Shown one piece after another: positions 3,169 through 12,658 of a DNA stretch of 64,000 nucleotides (within the stretch, counting starts at the first letter, position 1; every line of letters begins with the position of its first letter). The DNA is from a bacterium (GTDB taxonomy: Bacteria; Planctomycetota; UBA1135; GCA-002686595), in the NCBI GenBank assembly GCA_024226735.1, contig JAAELL010000348.1:1-64000 (forward strand), in the 5' to 3' direction. The position numbers were made by a program, and so were the translations under genes. The notes below the pieces were generated by a model that saw nothing but the letters and a program-made list of their open reading frames with translations, did no database searches and had not been told where the DNA came from.

Positions 3169-3468
3169 ATGAGACCTCTTCGCTCCCTAGCCCCCGGTAC
3201 GAGCGCCCGCCTGCTGCAGGTCGGGGGCGAGCGCGCATTCCGGCGCCGCCTGATGGAGATGGGGCTCCTGCCGGGCACGCTCGTGCGGCTCGTGCGGCGC
3301 GTCGACGTCGGCAACCTGCTCGAGCTGGAAGTGCGCGGCTGCCACGTCAGCGTGCGTCACTCCGAAGCGAGCCAAATACACGTCGAAGCTGATGGGCACG
3401 TCGAAGCTGATGGGCACGTCGAGCCCGATGGCGTCACCCCCGGCTCGCCGGCGAGCGATGGGTCGTGA
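3169..3468 (+). CDS. feoA: Ferrous iron transport protein A
   Basis: Small SH3-like cytoplasmic partner of the FeoB iron transporter. The 99-residue product begins with the FeoA fold: a PGTSARL segment, the RRRLMEMGLLPGT motif at about 25-37 and an LELEVRGCHVSVR strand. The last 30 residues are a low-complexity His/Glu/Asp tail made by an 18-bp tandem repeat (HVEADG three times), which is not part of the family fold and might bind metal. It overlaps feoB by 11 bases, indicating translational coupling. Fur-like control is suggested by the operator just upstream. Confidence 0.92.
   Translation: MRPLRSLAPGTSARLLQVGGERAFRRRLMEMGLLPGTLVRLVRRVDVGNLLELEVRGCHVSVRHSEASQIHVEADGHVEADGHVEPDGVTPGSPASDGS
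3381..3434. repeat. 18-bp tandem repeat (3 units) in the feoA tail
   Basis: Units at 3381, 3399 and 3417; the first two are identical, the third diverged. They encode HVEADG/HVEPDG repeats in the FeoA tail immediately before feoB starts. Confidence 0.85.
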
Positions 3469-5695
3469 TGCGGTGACGGAGGTCAACGCGCCGTCGACGA
3501 TCGGGACGCGAGCGCCGCTCGTCGCGCTCGCCGGCAACCCGAACACGGGGAAGACGACGCTCTTCAACCGTCTGACCGGCTCCGACCTCAAGGTTGGCAA
3601 CTATCCCGGTGTCACGGTCGAACGGCACGAAGGACACCTGCGACTCGAGACCGCGGGCGAGGTGCGCCTGCTCGACGTGCCGGGCTGCTACAGCCTCTCG
3701 GCGCGCAGCGAGGAGGAACAGATCGCGGTGCGCTCGATCTGCGGCCTACCGCCGTACGAAGCGCCCGACCTCGTCGTGCTCGTGATCGACGCGACGCAGC
3801 TGTCGCGCAACCTCTACCTCGCCCTGCAGACGATCGAGACGAACGTCCCGCTCGTCGTGGCGCTCAACATGGTCGACGCGCTCGAGAGCGAGGGACGGAC
3901 GGTCGACGCCGCTGCACTGGAGCAGGCGCTCGGCGTGCCGGTCGTCCCGATCGTCGCGCGTCAGGGAGATGGAGAGAGCGAGCTCGTCAAGAGGATCGAC
4001 TCCGTGCTCTCGGCTCCGTCCACGGCACTGCCGGGCGCGCGCTGGACGGCGGCGTCGCCCGCGCTGCGCGAAGACGTCGATGCGGTCGCGCACGTGATTC
4101 CGGACGCATGGTCGCGCGGCGACGTTGGCCGCGCGAACGCGCTCGCTCTGTGGGCGCTGCTCTCGGTCGACGAGAACGACGAGCTGATCGACATCCCCGC
4201 GGACCTGCGGCGCGTCACGCTCGAGCGGCGCGCCTCCGCCGCCCTGGCGGGGCGCGAGATCGACGCGGAGGTGATCGGTGGTCGCTACGGCTGGATCGAC
4301 CGCAACCTCGAGCGCATCGAGCAGCGTGGAGATCCGCACAAGCGTCGCTGGTCCGAGCGCGTCGACGCGCTGGTGCTGCATCCCGCGGCCGGCTTTGTGA
4401 TCTTCCTCACGCTGATGGGGCTCATCTTCCAGTCGCTGTTCAGCTGGGCCGATCCGGCGATCGGCTGGATCGAGCTCGCGGTCGAGCAGCTCGCTATCGG
4501 CGTCAGCAAGATCGTCCCGCAGGGGATCGTCCAAGACTTCCTCGTCGATGGCCTGATCGCCGGCGTGGGTAGCGTCGTCGTCTTTCTGCCGCAGATCCTG
4601 CTCCTGTTCTTCTTCCTGGGCTTGATGGAGGACTCGGGCTACATGGCGCGCGTCGCGTTCTTGATGGATCGCGTGATGAAGGGCCTCGGACTGCACGGGC
4701 GCGCGTTCGTGCCGATGATGAGCGGCTTCGCGTGCGCCATCCCCGCCCTGATGGCGACGCGCACGATCGAGCGTAGGCGCGATCGGTTCTTGACGATGAT
4801 GGTCATCCCCTTGATGACGTGCGCTGCGCGGCTGCCCGTGTACTCGCTGATCATCGGGGCCCTGTTTCCGCCGATCGCGATCTGGGGTTGGCTGCCGGTC
4901 CAGGGCCTGCTGATGGTCGCGATGTACCTGTTCAGCACGATCTGCGCGCTCGCCACGGCGGCCGTCTTGTCGCGCACCCTGTTCAAGGGACCCAAGGTCC
5001 CGTTGATCCTCGAGCTACCGCCATACCGCTTGCCGCAGCTGCGCATGGTCCTGCGAATGATGTGGCTCAAGAGCCGCGTGTTCATGACCGAGGCCGGCAC
5101 GGTGATCCTCGTGTGCACGATCGCTCTGTGGGTCCTCTTGACCTTCCCTGGCGACACGCCGCTTGCGGGCGAGTACGAGGCGCAGCGGACGGCGCTCGAG
5201 GCGCAGTCGCTGGCGTCCGAGGAGCTGGTGGAGCGCATGGCCGCGATCGACACGGCCGAGGCCAGCGAACGGCTGCGCGAGAGCTACGCCGGACGCCTCG
5301 GACAGATGATCGAGCCGGCGATCGAGCCGCTCGGGTTCGACTGGAAGATCGGCATCGGCCTGATCGGCTCGTTCGCGGCGCGCGAGGTCTTCGTAGCGAC
5401 GATGGGAGTGGTCTACGGCGTCGGTGACGAAGTCGACGAGGACTCGCCCAGCCTGCGCGAGAAGATCAAGGCCGAGAGCCGCGCGTCGGGCACACCCGTC
5501 TACACGCCGCTCGTCGGCCTGTCGCTGATGATCTTCTTCGCCCTCGCGTGCCAGTGCATGAGCACGCTCGCGGCCCTCAAGCGAGAGACACGCAGCTACC
5601 GTTGGCCCGCCTTCCTGTTCGTATACATGACGGCGCTCGCGTGGGGCGCGAGCTTCGTCGTGTACCAGGGTGGCCGGCTGTTGGGCTACGCGTAG
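3458..5695 (+). CDS. feoB: Ferrous iron transporter FeoB
   Basis: Inner-membrane Fe(II) transporter with a cytosolic G domain. From the ATG at 3458 the protein has 745 residues: P-loop GNPNTGKT at 26-33, G3 DVPG at 73-76, G4 NMVD at 137-140, then a helical spacer and the membrane part with two gate repeats (segment SGFACAIPALMATRTI is characteristic). Near the end FFALACQCMSTLA carries the conserved Cys pair of the last membrane region. An in-frame GTG at 3473 is an alternative start. No feoC follows. The gene ends in a hairpin-rich zone shared with the convergent DsbD-like gene. Confidence 0.96.
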   Translation: MGRDAVTEVNAPSTIGTRAPLVALAGNPNTGKTTLFNRLTGSDLKVGNYPGVTVERHEGHLRLETAGEVRLLDVPGCYSLSARSEEEQIAVRSICGLPPYEAPDLVVLVIDATQLSRNLYLALQTIETNVPLVVALNMVDALESEGRTVDAAALEQALGVPVVPIVARQGDGESELVKRIDSVLSAPSTALPGARWTAASPALREDVDAVAHVIPDAWSRGDVGRANALALWALLSVDENDELIDIPADLRRVTLERRASAALAGREIDAEVIGGRYGWIDRNLERIEQRGDPHKRRWSERVDALVLHPAAGFVIFLTLMGLIFQSLFSWADPAIGWIELAVEQLAIGVSKIVPQGIVQDFLVDGLIAGVGSVVVFLPQILLLFFFLGLMEDSGYMARVAFLMDRVMKGLGLHGRAFVPMMSGFACAIPALMATRTIERRRDRFLTMMVIPLMTCAARLPVYSLIIGALFPPIAIWGWLPVQGLLMVAMYLFSTICALATAAVLSRTLFKGPKVPLILELPPYRLPQLRMVLRMMWLKSRVFMTEAGTVILVCTIALWVLLTFPGDTPLAGEYEAQRTALEAQSLASEELVERMAAIDTAEASERLRESYAGRLGQMIEPAIEPLGFDWKIGIGLIGSFAAREVFVATMGVVYGVGDEVDEDSPSLREKIKAESRASGTPVYTPLVGLSLMIFFALACQCMSTLAALKRETRSYRWPAFLFVYMTALAWGASFVVYQGGRLLGYA

Positions 5696-5765
5696 CGGGG
5701 CGATGCCCCGCTAGGTGCAACAAGTTGCACCAGGGTGTTCTTGGTTCAACGGCTGACGCCGTTGA
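5693..5765. terminator. Triple stem-loop array between feoB and the DsbD-like gene
   Basis: Three consecutive perfect hairpins: 5693-5713 (9-bp arms TAGCGGGGC), 5714-5731 (8-bp arms GGTGCAAC) and 5746-5765 (8-bp arms TCAACGGC). They sit between two convergent genes and lack a U-run, so they may act as RNA-stability or Rho-associated ends rather than classic terminators. A very similar array occurs at 20087-20165. Confidence 0.7.
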
Positions 5766-5786
5766 GACGATAGCGGGGCGAGTGAT

Positions 5787-8276
5787 CTACATCACCGCGG
5801 CGAGGCCCTTCTCGAGGAAGTCGATGAAGGGTTGGTCGCTGGTCAACGTCGCGCCGTCGTGGCGTGCGTATTGGGTGCCGCTGACCGGGTCGACCGCGAG
5901 GTAGACCGGCTGCGCGACCGATTGCGTGAGCTCCTTCTGGAACTCCCTGAGATGCTTGTGCTTGTCGGTGTGCAAGCGCGCTTCGACGTAGTTCTCCAGG
6001 ACCGCGGCGACCGCCGGGCGAGGGAAGACTTTCTCTTCCATCTTGCGACAGTTCACTCACGTGATTCCGGTGAAGTTGACGAACAGGAGTTTCTTCTGCT
6101 CCCGGGCCAGCTTGGCGGCGGCCTCGTAGTCGTCGACGACGATCATGTGGCTGCCGCGCCCATGGCTGTTCGAGCCGCCGCCACCCCCCGCCGCCGGCGA
6201 GAAGCCCGCGAGCCGCTCGCTCGAGTAGTTGGGAATGATGGCCGTCATGATGTCGTCCATCACGAAGCCCTGAACGCCGATCCAGCAGTACAGAGAGAAC
6301 AGCACCGTCGCGACGCCGCTCACCATCCGCACGGGACCGATGCCTTCGTCGTTCTTGCCCTTCAGCTTGATCCAGCCGAACAAGAACATCGCCGCGCACA
6401 GGAAGATGCCGGTCCAGAGGAGCAAGAACACCTCGCGCGACAGGATCCCCCAGTCCCACATCAGGTCGACGTTCGACAGGAACTTCAGCGCGGCCGCGAG
6501 CTCGACGAAGCCCAGGAAGACCTTGAGCACGTCCATCCACTCGCCCGCCTTCGGCAGCGACTGCATCTTGCCCGGGACGAGAGACAGGAAGACGAAGGGC
6601 GTCGCCATCGTCAGCCCGAACACGCCCATGCCGAGGATGATGCGCGAGAGGCCGCCGCCCCCCTCCGCGCCGACCGCCAGCAGCGAGCCCACGAACGGCG
6701 CGGTGCACGTGAACGACGTGACGACCAGGGTCGCGCCCATGAGGAACACGCCCCCGTATCCACCGCGCATCGAGGCCTTGCCCGCCACGTTCATCAGGAA
6801 CGCCGGCGGCTGCAGGTTGATCGCGCCGAACAGGACGAACGCGAAGAACACGAACAGGGCACCGATGATGAGGTTCGTGACCGGGTGCGCGGCGAAGACC
6901 AGGATCGGCGGGCCGATCACGACGCCGATCAGGATGAAGATCAAGACGATCCCCGCGCCGTAGGCGAGCGAGAGCCCGAGGACCTTTCCGTCGCGCGCCG
7001 TCGCCTGCTTGGTGAAGAACGAGATCGTGATCGGGATCATCGGGTACGTGCACGGCATCAGCAGCGTGAACAGACCCCAGAAGACCGCGAGCAGGAGGAA
7101 CTTCGCTAGCGAGTCATCCTCCTCTTCCCCGTCGCCGTCTGCGCTCTCCGCAGCGACGGTGCCCGCGTCGGCCACGTCCTGACTGGCGGCGAAGACCTCG
7201 TCGGGCCCGCTTCCGGCGAACTCGAGCTCAAGGTCGAACTGCAGGCAAATGCCTTCGGCATCGCTGCACGTCAGGCCGCTGATGCGGGCAGTCCCGCTGC
7301 CGGGCTTCGCACCGGCACCGGTCGCGCGGAAGACGAGTGTGCCGTGGTGGCCATTGATCCACGTGTCGCGGCCGCCCTCGCCGAGTCCGAGCTGTTCGAG
7401 CCGCTCGGGCGCGGGGAATTCGAAGGGCTCGAAGTCGACTCCTTCGACCTCGACCGTGATGGTCGTTTCCTTGCCCGTGTTGTCGCTCGGGCCGAGGTCG
7501 CTCCGCGTGGGACCGTGGTAGATGTGCCAACCGTCGTCGATCTTGAAGTGAATGACGACCTCGGTACGCTCTCCGCTCGGGCGCACGAAGAGGCGAGCGT
7601 CGACGTGTTCGGTCGCGAAGTCGGGCGTCCAGCCACCGCTGTCATCGACTGCGCCCGGAGTGTCGAGGGCGGCGCCGCCGAGCGGCAAACCCACGCCCGG
7701 GTCCGGCACGCTCCCCTGTTCACTCCCTTCGGCACTCACCGGCTCGTCGACCGCGGCTGCCATCACCAGTTCGGCCGGGAAGCTCGCGAAGACCTTGTCG
7801 CGCCCCTTGCCGAGCGTCGTGAGCTCTTCCTCGTACGGGATGCAGGTCCCCTCCTCGTCGCTGCACGTCAAGCCGGCGAGGGTAGCGCTCGCGGTGCTCG
7901 CGTCGCCTCCTCCGGCGACTTCGCCCAGGACGTGGATCACGACCTTGCCGTAGTGCACCCAGTCCCAAGTGCCCTCGGGGTAGTCGGACTCGTGGCGCTC
8001 CGGCTCGGGCAGGCGCGGCTCTCCCCACGTGATGCCGTCGCCGCCGAGCGTGAGCTCGAGCTGCTGGCTGATCGCGTCGGGGTGTCCCTTTTCGGTGTGG
8101 TACAGGTGCCAGCCCGGCGAGACGCGAATCTCGAGCACCGCTTTCACTTCGGTGCCGTCGACGCGTGTGTAGAGCCTGCCCGTGGCTTCGTTCTGGGACG
8201 CGGCGGGGGCCGCGAGTCCGAGAAGGACGCTCAGGCCGAGGAGAAGGCCGATGCAGTCGGAGATGGTCTGTCTCAT
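5787..8276 (-). CDS. DsbD-like thiol:disulfide interchange selenoprotein (UGA decoded as Sec)
   Basis: Membrane thiol reductant conveyor. Order: signal peptide (1-27); two DsbD-alpha-like domains, each with a Cys pair (C138/C145 and C337/C344); a CcdA/DsbD membrane domain from about 392 with Cys in the MPCTYPMIP segment (C409) and in SFTCTAPF; then a C-terminal thioredoxin domain. The frame meets TGA at 6057-6059 after FVNFTGIT and continues without a gap for 89 residues as VNCRKMEE..., ending at TAG 5787. In relatives this site reads FTGxxCVNCRKME, so TGA replaces the first catalytic Cys (Sec740, Cys743). A SECIS-like hairpin follows the codon. Full length would be 829 residues. If TGA were a stop, the thioredoxin domain would lack its active site. 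No selenocysteine synthesis genes are in the window, so decoding remains inferred. Confidence 0.85.
6023..6059 (-). promoter_or_regulatory. Putative bacterial SECIS element with its UGA codon
   Basis: In the mRNA sense, 17 bases after the UGA (6057-6059) come GGAAGA, loop GAAAG and TCTTCC: a perfect 6-bp stem with a 5-base loop that begins with G. Position (loop about 27 bases from the U of UGA), loop size and the leading G fit the loose bacterial SECIS model recognised by SelB. The lower stem pairs poorly. Confidence 0.6.
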
Positions 8277-8370: not shown

Positions 8371-9252
8371 CTACGCCGGATTCACGTGAACGGAGACCTG
8401 TACGGCTGTCGGCTCAGCGCGTGTGACCACCTCTTCGACTTCGTGGGCGATTGCGTGACCCTTACGGACGCTCATTTCGCCGTCGACGCTGATCTCCATG
8501 TCGATGTGCAGAACGGCTCCGATCGGGTGAGCGGAGACGCGCTGGACTCCGGTGACCCCATCGACCGCACGGGCGATGCTGACGACTCGGCCACGCAGCT
8601 CGACGTCGATCACGCGGTCCATCAGGACATCGGCACTCTCGCGCACGCTGCGCAATCCCATCACGAGAATGAACAGTCCGATGATTCCGGTGACGAGCGG
8701 CTCGACCCATTCGACATGCAGAGCGCTGCCTCCCACGCCGACGATGACGAGGATGCTCGACAGCGCGTCCGAGCGATTGTCGCGCGCGAGCGCACGCAGC
8801 GCGTGGCTCCCCGTGCGCTGCGCGGCGCGGTGCGTGATCCAGACGAGCCACTCGTTGACGGCGATCGAGAAGACCGCCGTGCCCAGCGCGAGCGACACCT
8901 CGATCCCGGTGTAGCTCGGCGAGCTGAGCGAAGTCGCCTGCCAGAGCACGCTCGCGCCCGCTCCGCCGAGCACCAGGCCGATGAATACACCGGCGACCGC
9001 CTCTGCCTTGCCATGGCCGAAGTGGTGGTCGTCGTCGGCGGGCGTCGACGCGACGCGGAAGCTGACCCACGCGACCGCATTCGTCGCGAGGTCGGCGATC
9101 GAGTGGTAGCCGTCAGCGAGCAGCGAGGGCGAGCCGGAGATCAGGCCAGCTGCGATCTTGACCAGCGCCAGGAGGGCGTTGAGGCCAATTCCGAGCCGGT
9201 GAGCGATCTCTCCCAATCGCCGATCTTGTGGATTCGCAGCGGCTTTGGACAT
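8371..9252 (-). CDS. Cation diffusion facilitator family metal exporter
   Basis: Proton-coupled efflux of divalent metal (Zn, Fe, Co, Cd or Mn; substrate not determinable). The 293-residue protein has about six membrane segments, the ADGYHSIAD metal site in TM2 (46-54), the HHFGHGKAE loop (76-84), a second acidic pair in TM5 (D158 and D162 in DNRSDALSS) and a C-terminal cytoplasmic dimerisation domain with HPIGAVLHIDMEI. TM5 carries D-x3-D where several characterised relatives have H-x3-D, which may shift metal preference. It lies 94 bases downstream of the DsbD-like gene start on the same strand. Proximity to feoAB suggests a metal-homeostasis neighbourhood, but they are separate transcripts. 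Confidence 0.92.
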   Translation of the reverse strand: MSKAAANPQDRRLGEIAHRLGIGLNALLALVKIAAGLISGSPSLLADGYHSIADLATNAVAWVSFRVASTPADDDHHFGHGKAEAVAGVFIGLVLGGAGASVLWQATSLSSPSYTGIEVSLALGTAVFSIAVNEWLVWITHRAAQRTGSHALRALARDNRSDALSSILVIVGVGGSALHVEWVEPLVTGIIGLFILVMGLRSVRESADVLMDRVIDVELRGRVVSIARAVDGVTGVQRVSAHPIGAVLHIDMEISVDGEMSVRKGHAIAHEVEEVVTRAEPTAVQVSVHVNPA

Positions 9253-10123: not shown

Positions 10124-12658
10124 TCAGCACTGGCTGAAGCCGCACGAGTAGCACTTCACGCAACCCTCCGAGAAGGAGAGGGTCCCGCTGCACGCGGGGC
10201 ACTTCACCTTGTAGTTGGAGACGTTGCGCGGAGCCTGGTTCGCACGGGCCATCGGAGGCGCCGCCGCATCCGATGTATCCGGGTTGACCCGGCCCAGCAG
10301 GAGCGCCTCGAGGCCGTGTGCCTTCTTGGCGTCGAGGTAGCGCTGCAGTGCGGCGGCGAGTCCGTCGGCGAGCGACATGATGCGCCCGTCCTTGGTCGGC
10401 ACGCTCAAGCTCGAACCGATACCGTAGAGCTGCGCCACCGCCTTCTTCAGGCTTCCGTTCGAGCGCAGCCACAGGCTCAGCATGCGGCAGATCGCTTCGA
10501 GGTCGGAGTTGGCCACGTCACCGCCCTTGCCGAGCTGAGCGAAGACTTCGCGTTCGCGGCCGGAGCCCGGATCGACGGTCACCTTCACGTGCATGTTGCC
10601 GAACGGCGTCATTTGCCGGATCCGCAGGCAGCTCATGATCTCGGGCAGCTTGATGGGAGCGAGCTCGTCCTCTTGCTTCAGCAGACGGAAGCCGGTGGCG
10701 GCCATGTCCTCGCTCGACGGGCTGGTCTCCTCGCCTTCGCCGCGCTTGCCCGAGCCCTTCAGCGCCATCGGCTGCATGTCGCGGCAACCGTCGCGGTAGA
10801 CGGTGACGCCCTTGACGTCGAGGTCGATGGCGAGCTCGTAGATGCCGCGCACGTCCTCGACCGTCGCGTCGTGCGAGAAGTTGATCGTCTTGGAGATCGA
10901 CGAGTCGCAGTGGCGCTGGAACGCGGCCTGCATCCGCATGTGCCACTCGGGCGTGATGTCGTGGGCCGTGACGAACACTTCCTTGTGCTCGACCGACGGC
11001 TCGCCCAAGTGCTCGAGCGTGCCGTCTTCGATGATGCGGTCGATCAACTCCTCGGAGTAGTAGCCAGCGGCCTTGGCGGCCTGCTCGAAGACGTAGTTGA
11101 CCTCGCGCATGACCGTCGGGCGGCCCTTCGTGTCCTTCATCACCTGGCGGTTGAAGGCCAGGCTGAACATCGGCTCGATGCCGCCCGAGCAATCGGCGAT
11201 GATCGAGATCGTGCCGGTCGGCGCGACCGTCGTCGTGTAGGAGTTGCGCAGGCGCCGGCCTTCCTTCTCCCAGTCGGAACCTTCCCAGGCGGGGAACACG
11301 CCGCGCTCGTCGGCCAGGATCTCGGAGGCGAGATGGGACTCCTCGTTGAGCACCCGCATCACCTCCTCGCCGAACGCACAACCGGACTCGGTGTTGTAGG
11401 CGATCCCGAGCTTGTAGAGGGCGTCCGCGAAACCCATCACGCCGAGCCCGATCCGGCGGGTCGTGCGCGACATGTTGCCGATCTGCGGCAGCGGGTAGCG
11501 GTTGACCTCGATCACGTCATCGAGGAAGCGCGTCGTCGTGTGGATGATCGACTTGTACTCGTCCCAGTCGAACCGCGCTTCGGCCCCTTCGCCACGCACG
11601 AGCATGCCGAGGTTGATCGAACCGAGATTGCACGAGTCGTAGGGGTGCAGCGGCTGCTCGCCGCACGGGTTCGTCGCTTCGATCAAACCGACGTTCTTGA
11701 TCGGGTTGCGCGCGTTGATGCGATCGATGAACACGACGCCCGGCTCACCGCTGCGATGGGCGTGCTCGACGATCTTGTCCCAGAGCTCGCCAACGGTCCA
11801 GTTCTCGGACGTCGGGAGGCCCTCGTCGTCGACCTTCTGGTACTGCGACCACTCCTTCGTGCGCGGGTTCTGCACGGTGTGCACCATGCTCGGATCGCGC
11901 CGCACGTCCTCCAGGAACTTGTCGGTCACCGCAACCGAGATGTTGTAGTTCTGCAGCATCGACCGATCGTCCTTGAAGTCGATGAAGCGCGCGATGTCGG
12001 GGTGGTCGATGCGCAGGATCCCCATGTTCGCGCCGCGCCGGAACGCGCCTTGCTGGATCGCGTCCGTCGCCTTCGAGAACACCTGGATGAACGACAGCGG
12101 TCCTTCGGTCGTTCCGCCCGAGCTCTTGACGATGTCGCCGGACGGACGCAGGCGCGAAAAGCTGAAGCCCGTTCCGCCGCCGGCCTTCTGGATCAGCGCC
12201 GTCGCCTTGATCGAGTCGAAGATCCCGTCGATGGAGTCCTCGACAGGCAGAACGAAGCACGCGGACAACATGCCCATCTCGCGCCCGGCGTTCATGAGGC
12301 AGGGACTGTTCGGCATGAACACCCGGCTCGCCATCAAGTTGTAGGAGTCGCGCGCGACCGTGAGCGCGAGCTCGGCTCCACCGCCCTCGAACTCGAGTTC
12401 CGCCTTCGCGACGTGGCTCGCCACGCGCCAGAAGAGCTGGCGCGGAGTCTCGATCACTTCACCCGTGTCGGACTTCTTGAGGTACCGGCGCGCGAGGACC
12501 GTACTCCCGTTCGCGGAGAGGTCCGGGTCGGGCAAATCGCGCGGCGGGTCGATCGCATCGAGCTGCCTCGACGCATCCGTCACGGCAGCGGAGCGGGTCG
12601 GGGTAGCCATCGTTGCGGATTGTCCGAAGGAGGAGGACGGTTGTTCGCTCACGTGCAC
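10124..12658 (-). CDS. nrdJ: Adenosylcobalamin-dependent ribonucleoside-diphosphate reductase (class II)
   Basis: Reduces ribonucleotides to deoxyribonucleotides with a B12-generated thiyl radical; oxygen-independent. The 844-residue protein carries class II hallmarks: MNAGREMGMLSACFVLPVED (redox Cys), the KAGGGTGFSFSRLRP segment, ATNPCGEQPL with the radical-site Cys, then the C-terminal TSCPD-like domain and a Cys-rich tail (CPAC...CVKCYSCGFSQC) that presumably re-reduces the active site or binds zinc. Start at 12658 is the first Met; Met17 (12610) is equally possible because the first 40 residues are not conserved. No cobalamin riboswitch was recognised in the 143-base gap upstream, which contains a GGCTCCGCC/GGCGGAGCC inverted repeat. 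Confidence 0.96.
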   Translation of the reverse strand: MHVSEQPSSSFGQSATMATPTRSAAVTDASRQLDAIDPPRDLPDPDLSANGSTVLARRYLKKSDTGEVIETPRQLFWRVASHVAKAELEFEGGGAELALTVARDSYNLMASRVFMPNSPCLMNAGREMGMLSACFVLPVEDSIDGIFDSIKATALIQKAGGGTGFSFSRLRPSGDIVKSSGGTTEGPLSFIQVFSKATDAIQQGAFRRGANMGILRIDHPDIARFIDFKDDRSMLQNYNISVAVTDKFLEDVRRDPSMVHTVQNPRTKEWSQYQKVDDEGLPTSENWTVGELWDKIVEHAHRSGEPGVVFIDRINARNPIKNVGLIEATNPCGEQPLHPYDSCNLGSINLGMLVRGEGAEARFDWDEYKSIIHTTTRFLDDVIEVNRYPLPQIGNMSRTTRRIGLGVMGFADALYKLGIAYNTESGCAFGEEVMRVLNEESHLASEILADERGVFPAWEGSDWEKEGRRLRNSYTTTVAPTGTISIIADCSGGIEPMFSLAFNRQVMKDTKGRPTVMREVNYVFEQAAKAAGYYSEELIDRIIEDGTLEHLGEPSVEHKEVFVTAHDITPEWHMRMQAAFQRHCDSSISKTINFSHDATVEDVRGIYELAIDLDVKGVTVYRDGCRDMQPMALKGSGKRGEGEETSPSSEDMAATGFRLLKQEDELAPIKLPEIMSCLRIRQMTPFGNMHVKVTVDPGSGREREVFAQLGKGGDVANSDLEAICRMLSLWLRSNGSLKKAVAQLYGIGSSLSVPTKDGRIMSLADGLAAALQRYLDAKKAHGLEALLLGRVNPDTSDAAAPPMARANQAPRNVSNYKVKCPACSGTLSFSEGCVKCYSCGFSQC

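Follow-up and report, generated by a model that had tools for sequence, protein, structure and literature searches.

Among the closest described systems is DsbD of E. coli (structures 1VRS, 1L6P, 1UC7 and 4IP6), in which electrons reach the gamma domain from the membrane domain and are handed on to the alpha domain; a solved structure is available for the gamma-alpha mixed disulfide (PMC3961690). The attacking residue of the gamma domain, Cys461, has a pKa of 10.6, raised by Asp455 and Glu468, and Asp455, by helping to hold it at this value, protects against wasteful oxidation (PMC3961690). Selenocysteine (Sec) in such a domain has been predicted before. A "thiol:disulfide interchange protein" with a UxxC motif was found in three bacterial sequences, from Syntrophus and Geobacter, in 2006 (Zhang et al. 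2006, PMC1794560), an ocean survey of 2008 reported 22 UxxC sequences under "Trx-like 2" and cd02953 (PMC2398784), and the family is also present in reviews of 2022 and 2026 (including PMC13188914, Table 1). As in the protein described here, the motif of these predicted selenoproteins lies in a DsbD-gamma-like thioredoxin domain; they were, however, named by domain only, and Planctomycetota were not named. The entry cd02953 is DsbDgamma in CDD. Of three planctomycete genomes treated in one paper, two are reported to encode selenoproteins. A literature search combining selenoprotein, DsbD and selenocysteine returned no paper describing a DsbD whose gamma domain carries Sec, an earlier mention elsewhere being possible, and the papers found on other selenoproteins mention no DsbD selenoprotein. 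The UxxC kind of selenoprotein is already known, having been predicted in other bacteria in 2006-2008, while the full-length membrane form with its phylum-wide spread, the repeated switching between Sec and Cys and the loss of the pKa-tuning Asp appear to be new, none of them having been found in the literature searched.

The gene described here lies in a planctomycete stretch of 64,000 nucleotides, the whole of which was analysed and is called the window. Its minus-strand frame, running from 8276 to 5787, comprises 739 residues, a single TGA as codon 740 and 89 more residues before a TAG stop. Judging from sequence comparison and modeling, we put the probability that it encodes a real, Sec-containing membrane reductase of the DsbD/ScsB type at about 0.96. 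A preliminary description of this DNA had given the coordinates 5787-8276 correctly and had left out the strand, which is minus. The features of the gene are the following:

5787..8276, minus strand: predicted Sec-containing DsbD/ScsB-type gene, 829 aa, with ATG at 8276-8274, TGA read as Sec at 6059-6057 and TAG stop at 5789-5787
7818..8186, minus strand: first alpha domain (Ig-like, DsbD_N), residues 31-153, with Cys138/Cys145 (Pfam, alignment, model, Foldseek)
7215..7604, minus strand: second alpha domain (Ig-like, DsbD_N), residues 225-354, with Cys337/Cys344, equivalent to E. coli Cys103/Cys109 (Pfam, alignment, model, Foldseek)
6273..7124, minus strand: DsbD_TM transmembrane domain, residues 385-668, with Cys409 (E. 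coli Cys163) and Cys524 (E. coli Cys285) (Pfam, alignment, model)
5793..6146, minus strand: gamma domain of thioredoxin fold, residues 711-828 (Pfam, model, Foldseek)
6075..6077, minus strand: Asn734, at the position of the pKa-tuning Asp455 of the E. coli DsbD gamma domain (alignment)
6057..6059, minus strand: in-frame TGA, predicted Sec740, equivalent of E. coli DsbD Cys461 (frame, codon comparison, alignment)
6048..6050, minus strand: Cys743, resolving Cys of UxxC, equivalent to E. coli Cys464 and invariant among homologues (alignment)

Pfam matches on the 829-residue read-through protein are to DsbD_N (two stretches), DsbD_TM and Thioredoxin_7, giving the order of alpha domain, DsbD_TM and thioredoxin-fold gamma domain that DsbD/ScsB thiol reductases require; a match to PF13098, relevant to the Thioredoxin_2-type domain of the UxxC selenoproteins predicted earlier, is weak (21 bits, cut-off 27). 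The claims that a single TGA interrupts a DsbD-type frame at the first Cys of CxxC, and that coding goes on for 89 residues beyond it, both hold: the codon at 6059-6057 aligns with Cys480 of the E. coli DsbD precursor, which is Cys461 of the mature protein, and the Thioredoxin_7 match spans the TGA before the TAG stop is reached. Each of the six positions with a redox role in E. coli DsbD finds a partner in the alignment (C103/C109 with C337/C344, C163 with C409, C285 with C524, C461 with Sec740 and C464 with C743), and the extra N-terminal pair C138/C145 sits in the additional alpha domain. The AlphaFold2 model (mean pLDDT 74, mostly 80-97 in the membrane and gamma domains and low in the linkers) has two domains of all-beta type, a membrane domain made of helices and a thioredoxin fold; residue 740 immediately precedes the first active-site helix of this fold. 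As a separate observation, 37 of 60 planctomycete proteins share a further Cys close to the last membrane helix, residue 664 in the protein described here (about 6285-6287, minus strand), which Bacteroidota proteins almost always lack.

Comparison with the known proteins places the locus near, but outside, the described subfamilies. The protein shares with E. coli DsbD the alpha-membrane-gamma order, the six catalytic positions and the alpha and gamma folds, and differs from it in having Sec in place of Cys461, two alpha domains and Asn in place of Asp455, as well as in a score far under the cut-off of the NCBIfam DsbD model (NF001419, 120.1 bits against 330). A Foldseek search against the PDB returned the N-terminal domain of ScsB (6C29) at the top, followed by the gamma domain of 3F9U and by DsbD alpha, with structures of DsbD gamma further down the list. 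The ScsB match, best by E-value, extends over 347 alignment columns of the N-terminal part, to which the comparison is confined, and the two domains together superpose loosely; neither scs nor ccm genes were recognised next to the gene. The closest solved gamma domain, the C-terminal domain of a Bacteroides cytochrome c biogenesis-related protein (3F9U), reads FTGYGCVNCRKME against FTGITUVNCRKME in the planctomycete protein, with Cys where the latter has Sec. TsoB, a rhodanese/DsbD fusion-like selenoprotein, has the DsbD membrane domain in common (NF045694, 114.8 bits against a cut-off of 805), although it is listed with two Sec residues in UxxxxU (PMC13188914), whereas the planctomycete protein has one Sec in UxxC. 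As neither the DsbD nor the TsoB cut-off is reached, we name the protein DsbD/ScsB-type, outside both NCBIfam subfamilies. Since no NCBIfam model covers the Sec form, planctomycete DsbD genes are likely annotated as truncated, and gene-calling at present would probably shorten them at the TGA. The gene is flanked by FeoB (3392-5695, plus strand) and a cation diffusion facilitator (8371-9252, minus strand), and the frame at 10124-12658 (minus strand) encodes a ribonucleotide reductase large subunit with a TSCPD domain.

The codon at the Sec site was compared in Planctomycetota and Bacteroidota matches. The genome of the window is placed in Planctomycetota through a relative from its own family-level group, whose homologue appears to be that of the public MAG PLA3 (Planctomycetaceae). 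The 156 Planctomycetota homologue records, which come from two collections and count a few genes twice, have TGA in 123 cases, TGC in 25, TGT in 8 and any other codon in none, and the 76 Bacteroidota homologues have Cys, with one site ambiguous. The TGA forms span at least 26 family-level groups, as counted from the homologue listings. The window comes from a fragmented metagenome-assembled genome (MAG) of 612 contigs, where single-base errors occur, and the TGA might thus be thought a sequencing error or a nonsense mutation on the way to a pseudogene. Such an origin has next to no probability, because TGA recurs at the same codon in most homologues of independent assemblies, only TGA, TGC or TGT is ever found there, and the residues past the TGA stay conserved, the resolving Cys of UxxC being kept in 119/119 non-identical TGA genes. 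The codon counts in the 156 records refute both error and pseudogene; the exchange of TGA for Cys is exact, and the argument that a nonsense mutation would rarely hit this very codon is borne out, chance being excluded by the 123 TGA, 33 TGC/TGT and 0 other codons. The preliminary description had also expected an unusual redox variant, and here it has to be corrected, as the Sec form is the commonest among the Planctomycetota homologues sampled and no isolated oddity. One relative (G065) has two Sec-DsbD matches, on contigs C38 and C242, possibly paralogues or strain variants (MAG contamination 7%).

A search of the genome for selA, selB, selD and tRNA-Sec, set beforehand as the test that could refute decoding of the TGA as Sec, found all four. 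They comprise a tRNA-Sec of 74.6 bits with anticodon TCA (contig C32), a selB of 364 bits against a cut-off of 242 (contig C28), a selA of 489 bits and a selD of 330 bits with an in-frame TGA of its own at the active site (CAG-U-AAK). The machinery had been supposed to lie outside the window, and its genes are indeed on other contigs; ARAGORN found no tRNA in the window. selA, selD and tRNA-Sec lie within about 5.5 kb of one another, with selB on a separate contig, and the selD gene (contig C32, about 4977-6010, minus strand) adjoins selA, close to tRNA-Sec. As SelD, which belongs to a well-known selenoprotein family, carries an in-frame TGA, the genome has one or more selenoproteins besides the DsbD/ScsB-type protein. 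Among the relatives, selB is above the cut-off in 112 of 121; of the nine MAGs with no selB match, two have the Cys form and six the Sec form, the latter in mostly incomplete assemblies. Cys forms are also present in some selB-positive genomes, and Sec is therefore not strictly required.

The reading-through of TGA in this gene could also be expected if the codon had been reassigned genome-wide to a sense codon, for instance for Trp or Gly. The chance of this is vanishingly small, given that many long frames of the window end at TGA, that homologues as a rule have exactly one TGA apiece, that the residue exchanged is Cys and neither Trp nor Gly, and that selA and selB are free of in-frame TGA. 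Among the other TGA-ended frames of the window, read through and inspected by eye, no continuation was recognised as that of a selenoprotein.

Decoding of UGA as Sec in bacteria is associated with a hairpin (bSECIS), for which the criterion used was a hairpin directly after UGA, with an apical loop about 16-37 nt downstream and a G within the first two loop bases. The gene in the window has such a candidate, its loop GAAAG lying at nt 24-28:

6013..6049, minus strand: bacterial SECIS-like stem-loop, 8-44 nt past the TGA (folding and comparative pairing)
6039-6034 with 6028-6023, minus strand: SECIS-like apical stem of 6 bp, nt 18-23 with 29-34 after the TGA
6033-6029, minus strand: SECIS-like loop GAAAG of 5 nt, G first, nt 24-28 after the TGA
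6049-6046 with 6016-6013, minus strand: SECIS-like lower stem, nt 8-11 with 41-44 after the TGA

The simple loop rule discriminates poorly by itself, as 69% of the TGA genes satisfy it and so do 55% of those with Cys. Stem pairing was measured against synonymous recoding with each gene's own codon usage, a null chosen because the conserved ME..VFP residues dictate part of the apical stem, also in Cys genes. In the 119 non-identical TGA genes, pairing exceeds this null in the apical stem (z 8.2) and in the lower stem (z 5.6), and in 33 Cys genes the values are not significant (0.7 and 1.2); these z-values are somewhat inflated, since the null takes no account of relatedness among the sequences. 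When the set is thinned to 71 divergent TGA genes, the apical stem gives 5.3 and the lower stem 2.4, with 1.6 and 0.8 in 28 Cys genes. In the TGA genes, the 45 nt directly behind this codon have a folding z of -1.08 ± 0.12 (standard error), whereas seven other windows along these genes lie between -0.13 and -0.38. The support for the putative hairpin is comparative across homologues, since the gene in the window alone gives a weak signal (z -0.67 against synonymous recodings and -2.37 against dinucleotide shuffles), and Rfam, run on the window and on the region around the TGA, matched no RNA family, SECIS included. In TGA genes, the next 45 nt, codons +16 to +30 (about 5967-6011 in the window, minus strand), are less structured than synonymous recodings (mean z +0.82), a trait absent in Cys genes; perhaps the hairpin must stay free of competing pairs. 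Together, the machinery of the genome, the TGA/Cys exchange, the conserved hairpin and the DsbD architecture by sequence and fold uphold the original proposal of Sec at the first position of CxxC.

We propose that the TGA would be decoded as Sec by SelB and Sec-tRNA(UCA), guided by the hairpin just 3' of it. On the pattern of E. coli DsbD, cytoplasmic thioredoxin would then supply electrons to the membrane Cys pair 409/524, and these would move on to Sec740-Cys743 of the gamma domain and further through the Cys pairs of both alpha domains to periplasmic partners, the presumed substrates. Sec740 would be the nucleophile of the gamma domain, and the hand-over from gamma to alpha would go through a selenenyl-sulfide, a step proposed because Sec occupies the place of Cys461, the attacking residue of the gamma-alpha mixed disulfide. 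UGA termination generally competes with Sec insertion, and the codon might, compatibly with its decoding as Sec, serve as a selenium-sensitive switch, with low selenium leading to a 739-residue protein that has no active gamma domain and with both products mattering to the cell. We regard such a role as improbable, as the truncated form would be devoid of the gamma-to-alpha link and the sequence gives no sign of a separate function for it.

Sec insertion would mean that selenium is used in a trans-membrane thiol conveyor across much of a phylum, with repeated switching between Sec and Cys. On a tree built without the Sec column, whose root state is unsettled, the Sec and Cys states need 14 changes, at least 10 of which are forced by well-supported branches. 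That sister lineages have Cys forms, with so many switches, indicates that Cys is tolerated, and UGA might accordingly be decoded as Cys in vivo when selenium is scarce, the protein then being an ordinary DsbD. This is very hard to credit, as the hairpin after the TGA and the Sec-type SelD are both maintained, and TGA should in that case decay to TGC or TGT far more often. With the TGA taken as Sec, the repeated natural exchange in otherwise similar proteins offers a ready-made experiment on the presumed kinetic benefit of selenium in a thiol relay. The class of chemistry was to be expected; the scale, this clean natural experiment and a hint of a relaxed pKa lock were not.

The last of these concerns the residues around the nucleophile. 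In the 123 Sec forms, the position of Asp455 is occupied by Asn in 100, Asp in 14, His in 5 and Glu in 4, and in the Bacteroidota Cys forms it is Asp throughout; the position of Glu468, residue 7 after Sec, is Glu in 119/119 TGA genes. In a two-trait model, Asp is lost on Sec branches and hardly on Cys branches, with p 0.007 in a post hoc 1-df comparison and p 0.055 in the full 4-df model; an independent-pairs test had no power and was uninformative. We take the apparent correlation of Asp loss with Sec as a lead only. It is conceivable, at somewhat less than even odds in our view, that with Sec the gamma domain has come to be controlled differently, a low-pKa selenium nucleophile combined with a relaxed electrostatic lock giving the conveyor a different operating principle. 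Several Cys forms are nested in Sec clades and retain Asn at the Asp455 position, and on the tree these look like reversions from Sec to Cys.
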